41,155 nt of DNA from Candidatus Heimdallarchaeota archaeon. Lineage in GTDB: Archaea; Asgardarchaeota; Heimdallarchaeia; Heimdallarchaeales; Kariarchaeaceae. The position numbers and the translations under genes were made by a program. Positions 20,773 through 41,054 of this stretch are shown one piece after another. Below the pieces are notes generated by a model that was not told the origin of the DNA, searched no databases, and saw only the letters and a list, made by a program, of their open reading frames with translations. Position 1 is the stretch's first letter, and every line of letters starts with the position of its first letter. The stretch spans positions 1 to 41,155 of the forward strand of contig WAMJ01000147.1 in the NCBI GenBank assembly GCA_015522385.1, read 5' to 3'.

Positions 20773-22554
20773 ATGACGTGGACTGGAAAGCTCTGCAGGA
20801 TAGATCTGAGCAGCAAGACCGTGCTCACCGAGGACATTCCCCAGCAGGTGCTCATTGACTACATAGGTGGCAAGGGACTCGGCGTGTATCTGCTTCGGAA
20901 GGAGATGGATCCTACGACTGATCCACTCGCGGAAGAGAGTGCCTTTGTCATTGCTACGGGTCCAGCACAGGGTGTGCTGCCCATAGCCGGACGATACTGT
21001 ATCGTGGCCAAGTCGCCGCACACCGGCATATTCATCGACAGTCACGTCGGCGGATTCCTCGGGCCCGAGCTGAAGTTCGCGGGTTTCGACGCTGTGATCG
21101 TCACGGGCAGGGCGGATAAGCCTGTCTCCATCGGTATAATGGACGGCGATGTCAAGATCGAGGACGCCTCCAACCTCTGGGGTAAGACCACACTGGACAC
21201 CGAGGACGAGCTCAAGGCGCGACTGGGTGACAGGACCCGTGTCCTGACCATAGGTCCCGCTGCTGAGAATGGAGTGAGTTACGCCTCTACAACGAGCGAC
21301 TACTACAGGACAGCAGCGCGAGGAGGGATTGGCTTGATCCTTGCCTCTAAGCGGATCAAGGCGATTTGTGTCCGGGGGACGGGTGTCCCCAAGATCCCAG
21401 TTGCAGTGAAGGAACTGCGGCGCGAGATCACAGAGAGGGCGAAGGAATCAAAGCTCAGCGGTCATCTCCTCCCTGTGCAAGGCACCTCTTGGCTGGTGGA
21501 ATTGGCCTCTGCCCGCGACCAACTGCCCACTGAGAACTACAGCAAGGGAGAGTGGGGGAGGGCCTCCAAAATTGGCGGTGACGCTATCGAGAACCAGTAC
21601 CGCGGCAAGATCCATCCAAAGCCCTGCTACAGGTGCCCCCTTGCCTGCTCCTTTGTTATCGAGACGGAATGGGAGGAGAGGAGGGTTCAGCATCCTGAGT
21701 ACGAGAGTCTGGCCCTGCTCGGGTCCAACCTCGGGATCAGCGATCTCGACGAGTTGCTCAGGCTGAACCACATGTGCAATGAGCTGGGATTGGACACAAT
21801 CTCCACAGGCTCTACGATCTCGTGGTTCATGGAGTGCGGAAGGAGGGGCACGATCCCCGAGGAGTTCAGAGGTGAGAAGGTAGACTTTGGGGATGCCGCA
21901 GGTGTCCGTGAACTTATCGAGAAGATAGCCCGTTCTGAGGGTGTGGGCAGGGTGCTGGCTGGAGGAGTGCAAAGAGCGGCAGAGGTCTTCGGTGGAGGAA
22001 GTGAGCGCTGGGCAGTCCACGTCCGAGGGCTTGAACTCCCGGCGTGGGATCCCCGTGGTAAGCTCGGGCTCGGACTCTCGTACATCACCTCGAACGTCGG
22101 AGGGAGTCACCTGAGGGGGTGGCCGAGCACCAGTGACTTCCCCGACAGATCTGCCCTCGACGTGGTGGACAGCCTGATTGAGCAGCAGGACCTGAAGATT
22201 CTCAAGGACTCACTGATCATGTGCCACTTCACGCACTCTATCAGACCGCCGCTGAATATAGAGGACACCGCCCGGATCTTCGAGGCCCTGACAGGTATCC
22301 CCACGACGGCCACCGATATGCGCGAACGGGCACAACGCATCTGGACTGCCTGCCGGCAGTTCAACGTCGATATCTGGGGAGAGACTCCCCCGAGGGAAGA
22401 TGACACATTGCCCCACAGACTTCTGCGTGAGCCTCTTCCAAGTGGGAAGGCCAAGGGCCTGACCTCCTTCGTCTCCAATGCGGATCTGGAGGCGTGTCTC
22501 GACGTCTTCTACAAAAAGCGAGGGTGCGACCCCGAGGGCCGTCCTCTGCTGTAG
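20773..22554 (+). CDS. aor: Tungsten-dependent aldehyde:ferredoxin oxidoreductase
   Basis: 593 residues (Pyrococcus AOR 605). It oxidises aldehydes to acids, reducing ferredoxin. Visible: N-terminal GKLCRIDLSSKTVLTEDIP, GGKGLGVYLL, the pterin-binding stretch around GPAAENGVSYAS and YYRTAARGG-GLG-like segment, the [4Fe-4S] ligands C285-x2-C288-x3-C292 (CYRCPLAC) and the distal fourth ligand C484 (LIMCHFTH), plus GLELPAWDPRG, typical for the family. It needs a tungsten bis-pterin cofactor; no pterin or tungsten genes are in the window. It precedes the indolepyruvate oxidoreductase gene in the same direction with an 82-nt gap. Substrates may be aryl aldehydes from decarboxylated aryl pyruvates. 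The gene is clearly GC-richer than those around 17-20 kb. Confidence 0.93.
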   Translation: MTWTGKLCRIDLSSKTVLTEDIPQQVLIDYIGGKGLGVYLLRKEMDPTTDPLAEESAFVIATGPAQGVLPIAGRYCIVAKSPHTGIFIDSHVGGFLGPELKFAGFDAVIVTGRADKPVSIGIMDGDVKIEDASNLWGKTTLDTEDELKARLGDRTRVLTIGPAAENGVSYASTTSDYYRTAARGGIGLILASKRIKAICVRGTGVPKIPVAVKELRREITERAKESKLSGHLLPVQGTSWLVELASARDQLPTENYSKGEWGRASKIGGDAIENQYRGKIHPKPCYRCPLACSFVIETEWEERRVQHPEYESLALLGSNLGISDLDELLRLNHMCNELGLDTISTGSTISWFMECGRRGTIPEEFRGEKVDFGDAAGVRELIEKIARSEGVGRVLAGGVQRAAEVFGGGSERWAVHVRGLELPAWDPRGKLGLGLSYITSNVGGSHLRGWPSTSDFPDRSALDVVDSLIEQQDLKILKDSLIMCHFTHSIRPPLNIEDTARIFEALTGIPTTATDMRERAQRIWTACRQFNVDIWGETPPREDDTLPHRLLREPLPSGKAKGLTSFVSNADLEACLDVFYKKRGCDPEGRPLL

Positions 22555-22602
22555 AAAAAACACAGTACTTTTCCGTCACGTCAGTTATCTTGTAAGCAAC
22601 AG

Positions 22603-22610
22603 TATTAAAA
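22603..22610 (+). promoter_or_regulatory. TATA-like box of the indolepyruvate oxidoreductase gene
   Basis: TATTAAAA about 30 nt upstream of ATG 22637, inside the AOR-IOR gap. It suggests separate transcription from the AOR gene even though the two are adjacent. Confidence 0.4.
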
Positions 22611-22636
22611 CTCAGGCGAGGAGATACGGTAACTTC

Positions 22637-25600
22637 ATGAGCACAGATGTACGGCAAAAATACGGGTTGAGGGAATTCTCCCTCGACGACAAGTACCTGA
22701 AGGAGGAGGGGACGGTCATCCTGTCGGGCATACAGGCACTTGTGAGACTCCCCATCGACCAGATGCGAGCGGATCGCAGGGCAGGTCTGGACACCGCCAC
22801 CCTGATCTCGGGGTACAGGGGATCGCCACTCGGAGGGTACGACACCCTGCTGAAGAGGAACTCCAAGCTACTGGAAGAACACCAGATCACACTGCTCACC
22901 GCTGTGAACGAGGATCTGGGAGCGACGGCAGTCTACGGTAGCCAGATCGCGAACGTTCTCCCCGATCCCAAGCACGACGGTGTCGTGGGCATCTGGTACG
23001 GCAAGGCCCCCGGGCTTGACAGGTCGGGAGACGCCCTCAAGCACGCTAACCTCGTGGGGACAAACCCGCGAGGAGGAGTCCTTGCCATCGTGGGCGACGA
23101 CCCCTACGCCAAGTCCTCCACACTGCCCTCGCACTCCGAGCCTGCATTTTACGACGCCTTCATCCCCGTGCTCTACCCCGGAAACATCTCCGAGGTCCTA
23201 AGCTTCGGCAGGTACGGTATCGAGATGTCACGGTTCAGCGGGCTGTGGGTTGGGATGAAGGTGGTGACAGACGTTGCCGACGGATTCGGCACCGCAGAGG
23301 TGAGTCCTTTCGAGGTCATCCGACCCGACATTGGACAGTGGGTGCACGAACAGAACCCCACGCTGTTGCCTCACATCTCGCTGGGACTGGAGAAGGAGAT
23401 GCACGAGAAGCGGTTCAGGGCAGCCATGCTCTTCGCCCGTGCCAACTCGCTGAACCGCATCACCCTGAGCTCAAAGGAAGACCGGATAGGCATCGTCAGC
23501 GGCGGCAAGACGTACTACGACGTGACCGAGGCGCTCGATCTGGTGGGGATCAACGACGTGAGGCTCCTCAAGCTGGGTATGATCTACCCCATCGACGGAG
23601 AGATCGTCGCGGAGTTCGCAGATGGGCTGGATCTGATCCTCGTCATCGAGGAGAAGCGGGGGTTCATCGAGATGCAGCTGAAGGAGGTACTCTACGGACA
23701 GGAGCACCGCCCCGTGGTCATCGGGAAGCTCGACGAGAGCGGGAGGCCACTGGTCAGGGCCTACTCCGAGCTCCTCGTGGACGACGTCATAGAGGTCCTC
23801 GAACGGACGATAGGCGGCGAGAAGTTCAACAAATACAGGCAGAGGATCTCAAAGCCCGTGACCTCCATCGACCTCGGAATGGCGGGACCACCCCGTACGC
23901 CGTACTTCTGCTCAGGATGCCCGCACAACACCTCGACCGCCGTCCCCGAGGGATCGCTCGCAGGTGCAGGTATCGGATGCCACGGTCTCACCCTGCTCAT
24001 GGAGCGCAACACCATCGGACTCCTGCACATGGGTGCCGAGGGAGTGCCGTGGGTCGGTGCAGAGAGATTCAGCAGGATTCCCCACATGTTCCAGAACATG
24101 GGAGACGGCACACTGGCTCACTCGGGATACCTCGCAATCAGGCAGGCGGTCGCCGCCGGTACGAACATCACCTACAAGATCCTGTACAACTCGGTCGTGG
24201 CGATGACCGGGGGACAGCACGCAGACGGAGTTCTCCCCATCCCGCAGCTCGTGAAGGCTCTCAAGGCAGAGGGCGTGAGCAGGGTGGTTGTCCTGACCGA
24301 CGACCCCAAACGCCACAGGGGCGCAGTGCACCGCGACAGGCTGATGGAGGTCCAGATGGAACTTCGGGAGGTCAAGGGAGTCACCGTCATCATCTACGAC
24401 CAACCGTGCGCCGCCGACCTCCGGCGGAAGAGGAAAAGGGGCAGAGCCCCGACGCCGCAGAAGCAAGTGTTCATTAACCAGATGGTCTGCGAGGGCTGCG
24501 GAGACTGCGGTGTACAGTCCAACTGCCTGTCCGTGCACCCCGTGGAGACCGAGTACGGGCGGAAGACGACAATCCACCAGTCCAGCTGCAACAGGGACTA
24601 CACCTGCCTCAAGGGCGACTGCCCCGCATTCGTCGAGGTAGAAGGAGGCTCAGCCGTCCCCCGTCCACAGCTAGATACCCACGAGCTCCTCGACATCCCC
24701 GAGCCCGAGGTCAGGGTGGAGGAGGATGCCCGCATCTACATGGTCGGCATAGGAGGGACGGGAGTGGTGACGATCAACCAGATCCTCGCCACCGCGGCCT
24801 ACCTCGACGGAAAGCACAGCAGCAACCTAGACCAGACGGGTCTCAGCCAGAAGGGAGGAAGCGTGATCTCCCACATCAAGCTGTCCAGCAGACCACCCCA
24901 GTTCTCCAATAGGGTGACAAAGGCAGGTGCATCCACCATGATCCTCTTCGACGTCCTCGCAGGAGTCAGCGATGCCAACCTCGCCATGGCACACCCCGAC
25001 CGCACCGTCTGTGTCGTCTCCACCAGCAGGGTGCCCACCGGAAGCATGGTCAGGTCCAAGGACGTGGCGTACCCCGAGGAGTCCCACCTGCTCAGGAGGC
25101 TGGAGGGAAACGTGAAGCAGCGACACTGCGTCGACGCAGTCGAGATCGCCGAGGAACTCTTCGGCAGCCACCTGCAGAGCAACATGATCCTGCTGGGAGC
25201 CGCGTACCAATGCGGCGGAATCCCCGTGTCCCAGGACGCAATCTTCAGGGCCATAGAGATCAACGGCGTGGCCGTGGAGCAGAACAAGCAGGCGTTCCTC
25301 GTCGGCAGGATGGAGATCAGCAACCCCGAGAGGCTGGCCGCACTGAGGGCAGAGGAACCCGAGGAGGTTCCCAGTCACCCACTGCTCGACGGAATACCCG
25401 AGCAACTGCACCACGTCGTCGCCCCGAGGATCTCACAACTCATCGGATTCCAAGGGGAGAAGCTCGCAAGGGAGTACGTGGAGTTTGTTCAGCAGGTGGT
25501 GGAAAGGGACCGTGATGACCTCGTGCTTAGCACCGAAGTCGCCCGCTACCTGTACAAACTCATGGCGTACAAGGACGAGTACGAGGTGGCCAGACTGTAC

Positions 25601-26011
25601 ACCGACCCCGGGTTCAAGCAGTCGGTGGAGAAGACCTTCGGTAAGGGTGCAAGAATCACCTACAGGCTACACCCACCGATCCTCAGGGCAATGGGCAAGA
25701 AGAGCAAGAGCAGCTTCGGCCCGTGGTTCAGGACAGCGTTCCGAGTCCTCGCCGCCATGAAGTTCCTCAGGGGAACACCACTCGATATCTTCGGGTACAC
25801 CAAGGTACGCAGACTGGAAAGGAGACTTCCCCGGGAATACATGCAGACCATACTGGAGGTAATCGAGCTCCTCGACGGGGAGAACTACAGCACGGCGGTC
25901 GAGATAGCACAGCTCCCGGACGTCATCAGGGGGTACGAGGAGATCAAGCTGAGAAATCACAAGGTATACGAGAAGAGGTTACAGGAGCTCATGGAATCCA
26001 TCCGCGGTTGA
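22637..26011 (+). CDS. Fused indolepyruvate:ferredoxin oxidoreductase
   Basis: 1124 residues from ATG 22637. One chain holds what separate IorA and IorB subunits do elsewhere. Order: pyrimidine-binding half (about 1-400; GYRGSPLGGYDT, ATAVYGSQ), TPP-binding half with CSGCPHNTS and GAGIGCHGL (about 425-460) and MTGGQHADG, an Fe-S region from about residue 618 (CEGCGDCGVQSNC, then CNRDYTCLKGDC), and from about 699 a gamma domain starting MVGIGGTGVVTINQ, followed by an ~200-residue C-terminal extension. It oxidatively decarboxylates indolepyruvate and other aryl pyruvates to acyl-CoA, making reduced ferredoxin. Similar single-chain forms occur in aerobic bacteria and some archaea. High GC, like AOR. 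A cytoplasmic enzyme, downstream of AOR. Confidence 0.92.
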   Translation: MSTDVRQKYGLREFSLDDKYLKEEGTVILSGIQALVRLPIDQMRADRRAGLDTATLISGYRGSPLGGYDTLLKRNSKLLEEHQITLLTAVNEDLGATAVYGSQIANVLPDPKHDGVVGIWYGKAPGLDRSGDALKHANLVGTNPRGGVLAIVGDDPYAKSSTLPSHSEPAFYDAFIPVLYPGNISEVLSFGRYGIEMSRFSGLWVGMKVVTDVADGFGTAEVSPFEVIRPDIGQWVHEQNPTLLPHISLGLEKEMHEKRFRAAMLFARANSLNRITLSSKEDRIGIVSGGKTYYDVTEALDLVGINDVRLLKLGMIYPIDGEIVAEFADGLDLILVIEEKRGFIEMQLKEVLYGQEHRPVVIGKLDESGRPLVRAYSELLVDDVIEVLERTIGGEKFNKYRQRISKPVTSIDLGMAGPPRTPYFCSGCPHNTSTAVPEGSLAGAGIGCHGLTLLMERNTIGLLHMGAEGVPWVGAERFSRIPHMFQNMGDGTLAHSGYLAIRQAVAAGTNITYKILYNSVVAMTGGQHADGVLPIPQLVKALKAEGVSRVVVLTDDPKRHRGAVHRDRLMEVQMELREVKGVTVIIYDQPCAADLRRKRKRGRAPTPQKQVFINQMVCEGCGDCGVQSNCLSVHPVETEYGRKTTIHQSSCNRDYTCLKGDCPAFVEVEGGSAVPRPQLDTHELLDIPEPEVRVEEDARIYMVGIGGTGVVTINQILATAAYLDGKHSSNLDQTGLSQKGGSVISHIKLSSRPPQFSNRVTKAGASTMILFDVLAGVSDANLAMAHPDRTVCVVSTSRVPTGSMVRSKDVAYPEESHLLRRLEGNVKQRHCVDAVEIAEELFGSHLQSNMILLGAAYQCGGIPVSQDAIFRAIEINGVAVEQNKQAFLVGRMEISNPERLAALRAEEPEEVPSHPLLDGIPEQLHHVVAPRISQLIGFQGEKLAREYVEFVQQVVERDRDDLVLSTEVARYLYKLMAYKDEYEVARLYTDPGFKQSVEKTFGKGARITYRLHPPILRAMGKKSKSSFGPWFRTAFRVLAAMKFLRGTPLDIFGYTKVRRLERRLPREYMQTILEVIELLDGENYSTAVEIAQLPDVIRGYEEIKLRNHKVYEKRLQELMESIRG

Positions 26012-27567: not shown

Positions 27568-27673
27568 TGGTGGAGACGGGATTCGAACCCGCGCGTGCGG
27601 AGCACACTGGTTGTCTAGGTTCTGAAAAAAACTTTCAAGACCAGCACCTTGGACCAGGCTTGGTTACTCCACC
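27568..27673 (-). tRNA. tRNA-Ser(UGA) with a 21-nt intron
   Basis: Minus strand. The acceptor stem GGTGGAG pairs with CTCCACC, discriminator A. D-arm ACC...GGT with AAGCCTGGTCCAA loop; anticodon stem CTGGT/ACCAG; long variable arm GTGC-TCC-GCAC, a class II feature; T-arm with GGGTTCGAATCCC (B box). The anticodon stem encloses 28 nt; removing 21 nt (27613-27633) between positions 37 and 38 leaves the loop CTTGAAA with anticodon TGA. The intron fits a bulge-helix-bulge: bulges ACA and AAA flank a central CUUG/CUAG helix (one U-U mismatch) with inner helix GUUU/GAAC. Mature length 85 nt. The A73 discriminator and D-arm look leucine-like, but no leucine anticodon can be spliced. Confidence 0.88.
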
Positions 27674-38063: not shown

Positions 38064-38744
38064 TCAGTATTTTACATAGACAGAGACGGTGCTCCCTGAG
38101 ACGGCCAGAACTTCGACCTCATTCAGCTTGTCTCCCCCCATTCCTGCAACACCTGCAGGCATGCCGGGAGTGGTGATACCGTCTATAGCTGGTCTCTCGG
38201 CGAGCAGTTGCGAGATTGCGAACCCGGGGATATGGCCCTCGACAAAGTATCCTTCAACTGTGGTTGTGTGGCAGGCATACAGATCCGGTGTTAGGCCAAA
38301 GGACGCCTTCCTAGCGTCAAGGTCTGCCTGCTCCTCGATGTTGTCATTCACCGTGGCTCCTAGGTCTCTCATGTAGTTAATGAACTCGTGGCAACATCCA
38401 CAGGTAGCTGTCCTATAGACATTGAGCGTAATGTCCGTGAGATCCACCCCCTGATCGTAGACGGGAACTCCTTGGTTGGCATCGTTTCCAGATTCCGATC
38501 CCGAATTGTCTGTGGTGTCTGTCACGAAGCTGGTGTTGTGGCCCGAGAACAACCCTGTGACGAGTCCGATTATCACAATCACCGCGAACACTGTAATCCA
38601 TGGAATAATCCCGAATCCACCCGATTTCTTCTCAACAACCTTTGCCGCCTTGACCTTTCTCCGGGTGTTGTATCGGTCAATGATTTCATCTGCCGAAATA
38701 TTACTATTTATTCTATTCTTATTTGATTTTATTTTCTTCGCCAT
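38064..38744 (-). CDS. Membrane-anchored DUF411 copper-binding protein
   Basis: 226 residues. A basic cytoplasmic N-terminus (1-43), one membrane helix (about 45-65) and a linker rich in Ser/Asp/Asn precede a DUF411 domain (about 105-226): VYRTATCGCCHEFINYMRDLG with C115, C117, C118 and H119, then YACHTTTVEGYFVEGHIP (C158, H159, H171), ERPAIDGITTPGMPAG and GMGG. DUF411 proteins are linked to copper resistance and metal delivery; here the domain would face outside. TATA-like TATAAATAT at 38768-38776 (plus-strand reading) is 28 nt upstream of ATG 38744. It follows the CuA-polyferredoxin genes by 41 nt and may hand copper to them. Confidence 0.85.
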   Translation of the reverse strand: MAKKIKSNKNRINSNISADEIIDRYNTRRKVKAAKVVEKKSGGFGIIPWITVFAVIVIIGLVTGLFSGHNTSFVTDTTDNSGSESGNDANQGVPVYDQGVDLTDITLNVYRTATCGCCHEFINYMRDLGATVNDNIEEQADLDARKASFGLTPDLYACHTTTVEGYFVEGHIPGFAISQLLAERPAIDGITTPGMPAGVAGMGGDKLNEVEVLAVSGSTVSVYVKY

Positions 38745-38785
38745 CAGTGAAAATCTGACATGTCTGCTATAAATATGTTGTCGTC

Positions 38786-39148
38786 CTATAGTGCCTCGAT
38801 GATCCCTTTCATGTCCAAATGAAGCGGGGAGCAGGGGATGTGACAGAAGAACGAGTAAAGGCCTTGGGGCATCGGAGGGAGCTCCACGAACATTACCTCT
38901 CCAGGAACGAGCTCGACGGATATTTCGAAATCTGGGATCTCTATTGAATGAACGACATCTGTTGATGTTATTCTGAGAATGATACCTTCTGTTTCCGCTT
39001 GGATCATAATACGCTCAATCGACCAGTTTCCATTCTCGGGAGTTCGAGCCTCCATGACGATGTAGTCACTCGTACTTGCCATGTAGGTCATTGTTGCAGG
39101 AGCAATGACGACGAGAGTGATGAAGACAAATGTGAATACTCGCTTCAT
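38786..39148 (-). CDS. Small CuA-type cupredoxin
   Basis: 120 residues: signal peptide or N-terminal anchor (1-24), then a COX2-like cupredoxin domain. The ligand set of a binuclear CuA site is complete: H67 (DVVHSIEIP), and C102-x3-C106-x3-H110-x2-M113 in FFCHIPCSPLHLDM, matching the C-x3-C-x3-H-x2-M loop of cytochrome c oxidase subunit II and nitrous oxide reductase. The domain would lie on the outer face. No oxidase subunit I is nearby. The ATG overlaps the polyferredoxin stop as ATGA, so the two are coupled. It should act as an electron-transfer partner of the adjacent membrane protein. Confidence 0.88.
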   Translation of the reverse strand: MKRVFTFVFITLVVIAPATMTYMASTSDYIVMEARTPENGNWSIERIMIQAETEGIILRITSTDVVHSIEIPDFEISVELVPGEVMFVELPPMPQGLYSFFCHIPCSPLHLDMKGIIEAL

Positions 39149-40521
39149 AGCGTCCCACCTCCGTATAGGGTTGTGAGCATGAATAGGGCCATCCCGAATA
39201 GGAGCAAGTAGTTAGTCACCCTGAAGACAAGGGACGTGTCTGGTTTGTCGAAGAAGTACTGTCGGGAAATTCTGTCAACGATCCTTGTTGACCAGTAAAT
39301 CCCCGCGATGATAAGCAGTGAGCTGAGTACAATAAATAGCTGTGGGAGAAGGGGTGAATACTTCAGTGGTGTGATCCCAATGAGTCTCCACCCTACTCCG
39401 AAGGGGTCGTTCAGTGTGTTGACAATATAACTTATGTTCCTGCTCATAATTAAGAGGGTGAAGCCGACCAGATTAGTCAGTCCAATGGGGAGGGTGTACA
39501 TAGGCACGGTTGCTAGTAGGTTTTTAACATTTTCATCCTTCTTCCTAAGAAGATAGTTTGGAAGCAGGAAGTAGATAGATACAACACTCAGAGTAATCGC
39601 AACGACCAGTGAGAACCCGATGAGACCCTGTAGGCTGTTGAAGTTCGAAAGCATTGTCAGGGAGTTCCACGTCCCCAGAAAGACCACGGGGTACATCACT
39701 GAGATGACCAAGAGCAGCATGACTCGTACTGCCTCCTCGGGCTTCGGGACCTCCTTCAGAAGATCGTCATCTAGTAGTCTGAGATTGAGCGATATGTTGT
39801 CGAGGTTGCATGCTCTCACACATTCCATGCACAGCCCACAGTTCTGATTCGATTGTAGAGTTCCAGGGTAAACCATCCAGGGACATCCGAAGCTCTCTTC
39901 ATTTCCGAAGACGCAATCCTTGCTCTTATGACCTTTGCATATTTCGGTACTCTTGACTCTTAGCTCTATGGGATTCGTCAAGGAGTATACTCCGATTGAT
40001 CCTCCAATCGGGCAGATGTGCCGACAGAAGCTCCTTTCCCTAAACTTTACAGCAGTGATCACACTGGTGAGGAGCAGGACTATAAGGGTGAGTGCAGTAA
40101 GTCTGGGATCAGTCGTCAGCTTCCCTGCAAATACTGCAAAGAGGAAAAACAAGGAGTTAGATATCCACATCCCCTGAAATTGACTGGGAAAGAATTTTGG
40201 TGAGAGCTTTATCCTTTGTCCGAATGAACCTCCGAAGAATGACCTTCGCTGGATGTACTCCCCAGCTACGGGAATCGGGCACACTGCGCACCATAGCCTC
40301 CCGAAGAACGGAAGGAAAAGGATGACGAAGACTCCCCACCACACGAGCCATACCCAAATTGTAGAGAAGTTCGCGCTACCAACTGGTGATCCGAATAGAC
40401 CGGTGAAGATAGCAAGACTGTATCCTAAGGATGTGAGCAGGAGAAGGATCAACTGGGCAAACCGGGAGTGCACGAGGGTTTGCACTACTTTCTGCTCAAG
40501 CAGATTGTATGTATATCCCAT
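39145..40521 (-). CDS. NosR/NapH-like polyferredoxin membrane protein
   Basis: 458 residues with about ten to eleven membrane helices. Near the N-terminus is FGRLWCAVCPIP (C78, C81), then SFCRHICPIGG (C166, C170), both characteristic of the NapH/NosR/CcoG membrane proteins. A soluble loop with C195, C203 and C213 leads into CGLCMECVRACNLDNI (C228-x2-C231-x2-C234-x3-C238), a [4Fe-4S] cluster; the first three cysteines could take part in a second one. It is likely to pass electrons through the membrane between a quinol or ferredoxin and outside acceptors. Its stop and start overlap the genes for two CuA cupredoxins, which are its probable partners. Confidence 0.9.
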   Translation of the reverse strand: MGYTYNLLEQKVVQTLVHSRFAQLILLLLTSLGYSLAIFTGLFGSPVGSANFSTIWVWLVWWGVFVILFLPFFGRLWCAVCPIPVAGEYIQRRSFFGGSFGQRIKLSPKFFPSQFQGMWISNSLFFLFAVFAGKLTTDPRLTALTLIVLLLTSVITAVKFRERSFCRHICPIGGSIGVYSLTNPIELRVKSTEICKGHKSKDCVFGNEESFGCPWMVYPGTLQSNQNCGLCMECVRACNLDNISLNLRLLDDDLLKEVPKPEEAVRVMLLLVISVMYPVVFLGTWNSLTMLSNFNSLQGLIGFSLVVAITLSVVSIYFLLPNYLLRKKDENVKNLLATVPMYTLPIGLTNLVGFTLLIMSRNISYIVNTLNDPFGVGWRLIGITPLKYSPLLPQLFIVLSSLLIIAGIYWSTRIVDRISRQYFFDKPDTSLVFRVTNYLLLFGMALFMLTTLYGGGTL

Positions 40522-41024
40522 TATTCTTCCTCCACGAGGTTAAAGGGCTGAATTTCTCCTCTCCTCTCCCACTCCTGCTCTGCTCTTAGGATCAGCCAAG
40601 AGGTCAAGATGACCAACAGGTAGGTAGATAATATGTGCTGTACGTTTGGTGAGACATAGAGTTTTCCATTCATATACGGATGATAGTTCCCACAGGGCAC
40701 GTTGCACAGGAAGGCAAAAGTCCCCGTTTGGTTTATAATCACCGTTACTTCCGAAGGAGCTTGCACATTGACCTGTTGATCAATATCGAGTTCTTGGATG
40801 TAGAAGCCGTGGCGTGAATCATTACTCTGAAGAATAAACGTTACAGTATCTCCCACTTTCACCTCGACTCTACTCGGGTTGAACTCAAACTGTCGAGCTT
40901 CTATGATGATAGATCGCTTTACAGATCCTGAACTCATCGCACCAATAGTAAGTGATATGGGGTAGACCATGAGGAGTACGGCGACTAGAACCACTGCCGC
41001 TCGTGCCTTCTGGACACTTCTCAT
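40521..41024 (-). CDS. CuA-type cupredoxin with N- and C-terminal membrane anchors
   Basis: 167 residues. An N-terminal membrane helix or signal (8-28), a cupredoxin domain with H72 (RHGFYI) and the loop C107-x3-C111-x3-H115-x2-M118 (FLCNVPCGNYHPYMNG), a full CuA ligand set as in COX2, then a C-terminal helix (about 130-147) and a charged tail. This is the second CuA protein of the operon. The start ATG 41024 has TATA-like TATAAATA (plus-strand reading, 41047-41054) 26 nt upstream, so this is the first gene of the CuA-polyferredoxin-CuA operon. The stop overlaps the next start by one base (TAATG). Confidence 0.88.
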   Translation of the reverse strand: MRSVQKARAAVVLVAVLLMVYPISLTIGAMSSGSVKRSIIIEARQFEFNPSRVEVKVGDTVTFILQSNDSRHGFYIQELDIDQQVNVQAPSEVTVIINQTGTFAFLCNVPCGNYHPYMNGKLYVSPNVQHILSTYLLVILTSWLILRAEQEWERRGEIQPFNLVEEE

Positions 41025-41046
41025 TATGACCTGTCAATGCCCGATG

Positions 41047-41054
41047 TATAAATA
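41047..41054 (-). promoter_or_regulatory. TATA box of the CuA-polyferredoxin operon
   Basis: Minus strand TATTTATA centred 26 nt upstream of the ATG at 41024, giving a leaderless operon transcript. The remaining bases to the window end are AT-rich, with a CCCC-AGCTCTAT-GGGG hairpin at about 41111-41126. Confidence 0.5.

Follow-up and report, generated by a model that had tools for sequence, protein, structure and literature searches.

CuA centres are known in cytochrome oxidase and in nitrous oxide (N2O) reductase, and the list of their ligands used here is that of haem-copper oxidase subunit II. NosR is a membrane polyferredoxin that is linked to an outside CuA protein and possesses a periplasmic domain binding flavin mononucleotide (FMN). 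In the account given in PMC3475470, NapH has two Cx3CP motifs and the cysteines for two [4Fe-4S] clusters, whereas CcoG is described in PMC7558416 as ending in a C-terminal immunoglobulin (Ig)-like domain, and CopG, in the same source, as a DUF411 protein with a CxCC motif. Here, a locus in which CuA domains are part of a different unit was analysed in a stretch of 41,155 nucleotides from Candidatus Heimdallarchaeota archaeon (contig WAMJ01000147.1, positions 1 to 41,155), referred to as the window. The unit is formed by the genes of two cupredoxins, CupA and CupB, and of an iron-sulphur (FeS) membrane protein located between them. The order CuA-FeS-CuA is common to the archaeon and to Chloroflexota; from the sequences, it looks like a real path by which electrons would cross the membrane, one without an earlier description and probably connected with copper handling.

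All five CuA side-chain ligands are present in CupA (H72, C107, C111, H115 and M118; ligand region RHGFYI...CNVPCGNYHPYM) and in CupB (ligand region VVHSIEI...CHIPCSPLHLDM); "complete" CuA set refers here to these five side chains only. Both proteins match the Pfam families Cupredoxin_1 and COX2, and among solved structures the best match of each is a CuA subunit of cytochrome oxidase (phmmer E 6e-9 for CupA and 1.1e-6 for CupB). The five ligands were invariant across an alignment of 15 sequences, CupA and CupB included, and the CuA motif was found in 120 of the 120 CupA-profile matches listed, of 3922 in total. This larger set may include true oxidase subunits; some CupA-group proteins are named 'Nitrous-oxide reductase' or 'heme/copper-type cytochrome/quinol oxidase subunit 2' in databases, possibly as misannotations. 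A haem c motif was absent from CupB and from its three listed relatives. The sequence, together with the fold of a relative described below, supports CupA and CupB as CuA domains, from which we infer their metal content. A tree built from 27 CuA domains separated, with 100/100 support, CupA and the other upstream or N-terminal domains (15 in all) from CupB and the other downstream ones (12 in all), although the program flagged long branches, including that of CupA.

The FeS protein matches Fer4_5 (E 2.9e-8) and carries the motifs C78xxC81P, C166xxxC170P, C195xxH198xxxxC203, C213P and C228xxC231xxC234xxxC238. Among its 87 database matches, of which P0001 is the window's own protein, cysteines 195, 203, 213, 228, 231, 234 and 238 were kept in all 87, and cysteines 78, 81, 166 and 170 in 85, the other two having gaps. 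At residue 198 (window positions 39928-39930), 44 of the other 86 homologues have His and 39 have Cys, the remainder being Asp (2) and Glu (1), a pattern that fits an eighth cluster ligand in which His and Cys would be interchangeable. The first-pass annotation, made from the sequence of the window alone, had described two cupredoxins with a CuA ligand set on either side of a NapH/NosR-type [4Fe-4S] membrane protein; the five side-chain ligands and the oxidase CuA subunits found as nearest structures bear out the former, and the Fer4_5 match and the conserved motif cysteines the latter.

Both kinds of domains also occur fused in one chain. Eleven of the 87 FeS matches were longer than 600 residues, and eight of these had an N-terminal cupredoxin-like domain. 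In P0026, P0051 and P0069, a CuA domain with all five ligands, a transmembrane (TM) helix and the FeS protein follow each other in one chain, and an open reading frame (ORF) of 665 residues at locus L021 is a further fusion with the full ligand set, whereas P0070 keeps four of the five ligands. The model of P0026 (predicted local distance difference test, pLDDT, 86.2) had the Thermus CuA domain as its top fold match (2cua, E 1.4e-6, 112 columns). The remaining three long proteins (P0075, P0077 and P0081) have a different N-terminal domain, YtkA-like as judged from its sequence. The pairing of Fe-S protein and CuA is well supported by these fusions and by adjacency of the genes.

The conservation of the gene order was followed in 301 genomes from the phylum of genome G001 (Chloroflexi record), 55 of which had an FeS homologue at E<=1e-30. 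A close class (E<=1e-137) comprised 14 places in 11 genomes; two of the places, with equal scores near the two ends of one contig of G115, are probably one copy. When one FeS copy per close-class genome was checked, a full CuA motif was found directly upstream of the FeS gene or fused to it in 11 of 11. Downstream of the FeS gene, a second CuA protein, this time with haem c, was present at 12 of the 14 places, corresponding to 9 of the 11 genomes (the CuA-haem c domain call, PF00116 plus PF00034, comes from one protein tested). Of the two genomes without this gene, G001 has a contig that stops about 70 bases after the FeS ORF, and G244 has a GltD-like NAD(P)H/FAD/Fer4_20 protein directly downstream of the FeS gene, in the place where others have the CuA-haem c gene. 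No description of the CuA-FeS-CuA unit was found in the open-access literature searched, most subscription papers being outside the search.

Within the window, neither oxidase subunit I nor NosZ was detected among the 39 ORFs scanned for families, as the first-pass annotation had noted for the immediate neighbours. In the Chloroflexota, oxidase subunit I (PF00115) was present in 10 of the 11 close-class genomes; outside this class, 8 of 10 genomes that carry an FeS homologue and 8 of 14 that lack one had it. Only in G163, about 7 kb away, did it lie less than 10 kb from the FeS gene of the close class, with two of the 11 genomes on contigs of about 6 kb, too short to judge, and the draft genome G187 has the module without any PF00115 match. 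NosZ (TIGR04246) was found in none of the 11 genomes and in 19 of 301 overall, which served as positive control; in 8 of these 19, a more distant FeS homologue (E 1e-34 to 1e-67) is also encoded, each time on a different contig from NosZ. The possibility that oxidase or nos genes are a constant continuation of the operon was thus rejected, with such genes near in one genome of 11 for PF00115 and in none for NosZ. The free-standing route from Fe-S clusters through the membrane to outside CuA sites, proposed in the first-pass annotation, is supported by the same order in Chloroflexota without oxidase or nos genes in the unit; the recurrence of that order also means that the set is not peculiar to this window.

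As a separate observation on these clusters, a gene read as DUF1573-like, with no Pfam test of these copies, lies just downstream of the CuA-haem c gene in L046, L047, L048, L049, L050, L052, L053, L054, L055 and L056. In 10 of the 14 loci examined, belonging to seven genomes, one codon of this gene, always the same, is an in-frame UGA (EGC-UGA-PP) with an invariant hairpin (ACCATCGGTTCGATGG) after it, and the product is a putative selenoprotein. A tRNA for selenocysteine (Sec) scored above the cut-off in the seven UGA genomes and in 18 others of 32. Selenoproteins of the DUF1573 kind appear in reviews with a UGC motif, so that the Sec position may differ here. Another FeS subfamily follows a YtkA-like protein (L050:2150-4232, L054:4024-6176, L061, L062 and L063; PF13115 was tested for L050 only), and in L050 and L054 it shares a cluster with the CuA module.

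When compared to the described systems, the archaeal FeS protein reached the model cut-offs of none of NosR, NapH and CcoG. It resembles NosR as a membrane polyferredoxin linked to an outside CuA protein, and differs from it by a CuA domain in place of the FMN domain and by the lack of nos genes in the unit; no FMN-binding domain was found in the archaeal protein, and the 7 families that 50 relatives matched include none either. With NapH it shares a membrane part with a CxxxCP motif and cluster cysteines, and 49 of 50 relatives matched the NapH model TIGR02163 at E<=1e-3. Nevertheless, the archaeal protein scored 24.4 bits against a cut-off of 213, has nine predicted TM helices compared to the four given for NapH in PMC3475470, and is partnered by CuA, with no nap genes among the ORFs scanned. 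Of the NapH features, it has one CxxxCP and, as the first motif, one CxxCP, with the cysteines conserved and a His at one cluster position. CcoG (RdxA/FixG) is likewise a membrane protein with two [4Fe-4S] clusters and a link to copper, but it bears a C-terminal Ig-like domain, and a CuA partner or an N-terminal CuA fusion is found here instead. Finally, the CuA domain with its five ligands and the fold of P0026 recall oxidase subunit II and NosZ, from which the unit differs by the absence of subunit I or a NosZ catalytic domain and by scores far below the family cut-offs: 26.2 bits for CupA and 38.2 for CupB with the CoxB model TIGR02866 (cut-off 147.7), and 36.8 and 29.2 bits, for the CuA part only, with the NosZ model TIGR04246 (cut-off 625). 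By analogy, the module may work like NosR or NapH with CuA replacing FMN or NapG, in a copper setting resembling that of CcoG.

The sidedness of the FeS protein was derived from a model and from loop charge. The AlphaFold model (pLDDT 90.7; predicted template modelling score 0.90) has nine TM helices, and with the N-terminus taken as inside, the counts of Lys plus Arg in the archaeal protein were 1, 6, 12, 3 and 1 for the inner loops and 0, 0, 0, 2 and 0 for the outer ones. Family mean charges agree with this, the last inner loop (0.4) excepted, and the value of the first inner loop is inflated by N-terminal extensions. As an inside N-terminus is suggested by the CuA-TM-FeS fusions, this distribution would place the clusters in the cytosol and the conserved DPFGxGW loop outside. 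Therefore, the FeS clusters are predicted to lie on the side opposite to CuA. No convincing structural homologue of the FeS protein was found by sequence profile, Foldseek or VIA.

Genes related to copper were found around the module. At 13 of the 14 close-class places it comes after a PCYCGC-family protein, and L040-L042, where the FeS homologues belong to another group, likewise have PCYCGC-like proteins nearby. Of the 12 testable places, 8 had a P-type ATPase (PF00122) no more than 10 kb away (7 of 11 when G115 is counted once), two of the 14 being on contigs too short to judge; from the 89 PF00122 matches in the 11 close-class genomes, about 0.04 would be expected per 20-kb stretch. The CPC motif was present in 7 of 9 P-type ATPase ORFs read near FeS loci. 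A scan of 124 neighbouring ORFs at 12 loci, some of them antisense and with L053 left out as a near-duplicate of L055, gave PCYCGC 10 times, HMA 9, HATPase_c 8 and Cu-oxidase_2 3.

Regarding the electron donor, a GltD-like FAD/Fer4_20 gene adjoins the FeS gene in 11 of 11 loci of a sister FeS group (L025-L035), in which no ORF with a CuA motif was found within about 1.5 kb of the FeS gene; in G244, CuA and the GltD-like gene occur together. This adjacency suggests a cytosolic flavoprotein as donor in some lineages. A quinol is also a possible donor for the archaeal protein, because NapH is reported in PMC3475470 to oxidise menaquinol.

The observed gene set, ligands, fusions and conserved order, together with the modelled sidedness, suggest a path in which a cytosolic donor (NAD(P)H via a flavoprotein, or ferredoxin) or menaquinol would reduce two [4Fe-4S] clusters placed on the cytosolic face. 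Electrons would then cross the membrane part, perhaps through the four-cysteine pair CxxCP/CxxxCP, to reach the CuA site of CupA, which would sit, membrane-anchored, next to the FeS protein (in some relatives the two are fused), and could pass on to a second CuA carrier, in the archaeon CupB and in Chloroflexota the protein with CuA and haem c. The use would most probably be copper redox chemistry outside the cytoplasm, with the module keeping copper, cuproproteins or copper/thiol proteins (DUF411/CopG, PCYCGC) in the right state. An outward electron wire from FeS to CuA is in itself likely; for the complete proposal, an outward CupA-FeS-CupB module for copper redox handling, the case is evenly balanced.

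The electrons might instead feed a respiratory branch, in which quinol or NAD(P)H would be oxidised through the FeS protein and two CuA carriers to the benefit of an oxidase or reductase encoded elsewhere, the module replacing a bc1-type or NosR-type donor. CuA is an electron-transfer site by known chemistry, the Chloroflexota have their second CuA fused to haem c, nearly all close-class genomes have an oxidase subunit I match, and 8 of the 19 NosZ genomes have a more distant FeS homologue. The menaquinol oxidation reported for NapH (PMC3475470) and the reconstruction of Asgard respiration in PMC10307638, which takes cupredoxins as carriers, point in the same direction. However, the single oxidase gene near the module (G163), the presence of oxidase also in 8 of 14 genomes without an FeS match, the case of G187, and the lack of NosZ in the close class and of any contig shared by NosZ and the distant homologues make this explanation rather unlikely. 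Reduction of Cu(II) by the FeS protein itself, by analogy with CcoG, would make of the CuA-like domains metallochaperones or copper sensors instead of carriers, and of the module a copper reductase or a copper-site assembly factor. According to PMC7558416, CcoG, a membrane protein carrying two [4Fe-4S] clusters, acts as a cupric reductase, and copper tolerance rises when it is over-produced; the neighbours (copper-type ATPase, HMA, PCYCGC and multicopper oxidase) would agree with a similar role here. Against this, the CcoG model TIGR02745 was matched at E<=1e-3 by one of 50 relatives (E 4e-4) and not by the archaeal protein, and that two different domains each have a full set of CuA ligands speaks for electron transfer; a CcoG-like role is improbable. 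A reverse flow, with outside copper or another donor being oxidised and electrons fed inwards, is allowed by the genes, which alone leave the direction unfixed; as the usual potentials of [4Fe-4S] clusters and CuA favour flow from the former to the latter, it is very improbable.

Several points weigh against the outward module for copper redox handling. No electron path through the membrane is known, and the cluster cysteines of the related NapH are placed in a periplasmic domain in PMC3475470. P0034, P0068, P0073 and P0074, four of the eight cupredoxin-fused FeS proteins, are without most or all of the copper ligands, so that a cupredoxin domain can persist without CuA; the ligands are conserved in close homologues, as in the 15-sequence alignment, but not in several of these more distant relatives. 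Approximately unbiased (AU) tests reject no alternative placing of the window CuA domains (p 0.34, 0.32 and 0.078, the last for the tree constrained to put CupA within the CupB group), and a recent local duplication giving both CuA genes in this archaeon is disfavoured, though not rejected at this p 0.078. As for copper, the CPC motif of the copper type was present in only 6 of the 8 P-type ATPases read at close-class places, the archaeal operon is without a copper transporter, and nearby copper genes may serve just for filling the CuA sites. The DUF411 protein of the window (PF04214, 69.9 bits against a cut-off of 27) resembles CopG in its domain and CGCC motif; it differs in that its gene has its own promoter (TATA box) and is probably not co-transcribed with the module, and no DUF411 homologue was found in the fetched Chloroflexota loci (best E 0.47).

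A broader proposal, put forward tentatively as a possibility, is that these proteins represent a transmembrane oxidoreductase class not described in the literature searched. It would have clusters on one face, one of them with a His/Cys-interchangeable ligand, a four-cysteine cluster in the membrane and, on the outside, an interchangeable head, which is CuA or, in sister forms, YtkA-like; with the CuA-FeS-CuA order common to the archaeon and Chloroflexota, CuA would act as a general electron exit port independent of oxidases and N2O reductase. If the proposed reading of the unit holds, electrons would be pushed across the membrane without haem in the membrane part, the module would be a test case for conduction by NapH/NosR/CcoG proteins, and annotations used for inferring respiration or N2O reduction in archaea and Chloroflexota would have to be corrected.

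The coordinates of the genes and of the TATA-box-like elements are compiled in Table 1.

Table 1. Features of the CupA-FeS-CupB locus (window positions).
Feature	Positions	Strand	Description
CupA gene	40521-41024	minus	167 residues; signal/anchor, CuA cupredoxin domain, C-terminal TM helix
FeS membrane protein gene	39145-40521	minus	458 residues; NapH/NosR/CcoG-like, 9 predicted TM helices
CupB gene	38786-39148	minus	120 residues; second CuA cupredoxin, N-terminal signal or anchor, without haem c motif
DUF411 (CopG-like) gene	38064-38744	minus	N-terminal TM anchor, CGCC motif
TATA-box-like TTTATA	41047-41052	minus	begins 28 bases upstream of CupA start codon
TATA-box-like hexamer	38768-38773	minus	begins 29 bases upstream of DUF411 start codon

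The gene positions given in the first-pass annotation stood, as did the overlaps of 1 base between the CupA and FeS genes and of 4 bases between the FeS and CupB genes. No TATA-like hexamer was found within 70 bases upstream of the FeS or CupB genes, the chance of one within a given 7-base range being about 0.4%. With a TATA box at CupA and none at the other two, the transcription unit most likely begins at CupA. As in many archaea, the CupA-FeS-CupB transcript is perhaps leaderless. The DUF411 gene does follow next to CupB, as had been annotated, but having its own TATA box it is probably a separate transcription unit. In the 131 bases between CupA and the window edge, stops close all three minus-strand frames; a gene could still end there.

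By sequence, the window DNA is archaeal, and archaeal marks in it include Pus10 with an archaeal THUMP domain, ribosomal S15 with an S13_N domain, and SRP54. The FeS database matches include Heimdall-, Thor- and Thaumarchaeota, and bacteria too. Since the named relatives comprise Heimdallarchaeota and Thorarchaeota, but also bacteria, an Asgard origin is likely. A protein 75% identical to the FeS protein (P0002), named as from Gammaproteobacteria, comes from a 1.5-kb contig and is perhaps a misbinned archaeal sequence. No FeS relatives on viral contigs were confirmed; those on plasmids are distant (22 to 30% identity), and no CuA motif was found in the four of seven plasmid regions read around them.

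Elsewhere in the window, an aldehyde ferredoxin oxidoreductase ORF and a POR/DUF6537 ORF (20773-26011) overlap by 77 bases, and the second start may lie further in. A tRNA detected by Rfam and missed by ARAGORN (27568-27673, minus strand) has a long variable arm and 23 bases in the anticodon arm compared to 2 in the model, probably an intron.

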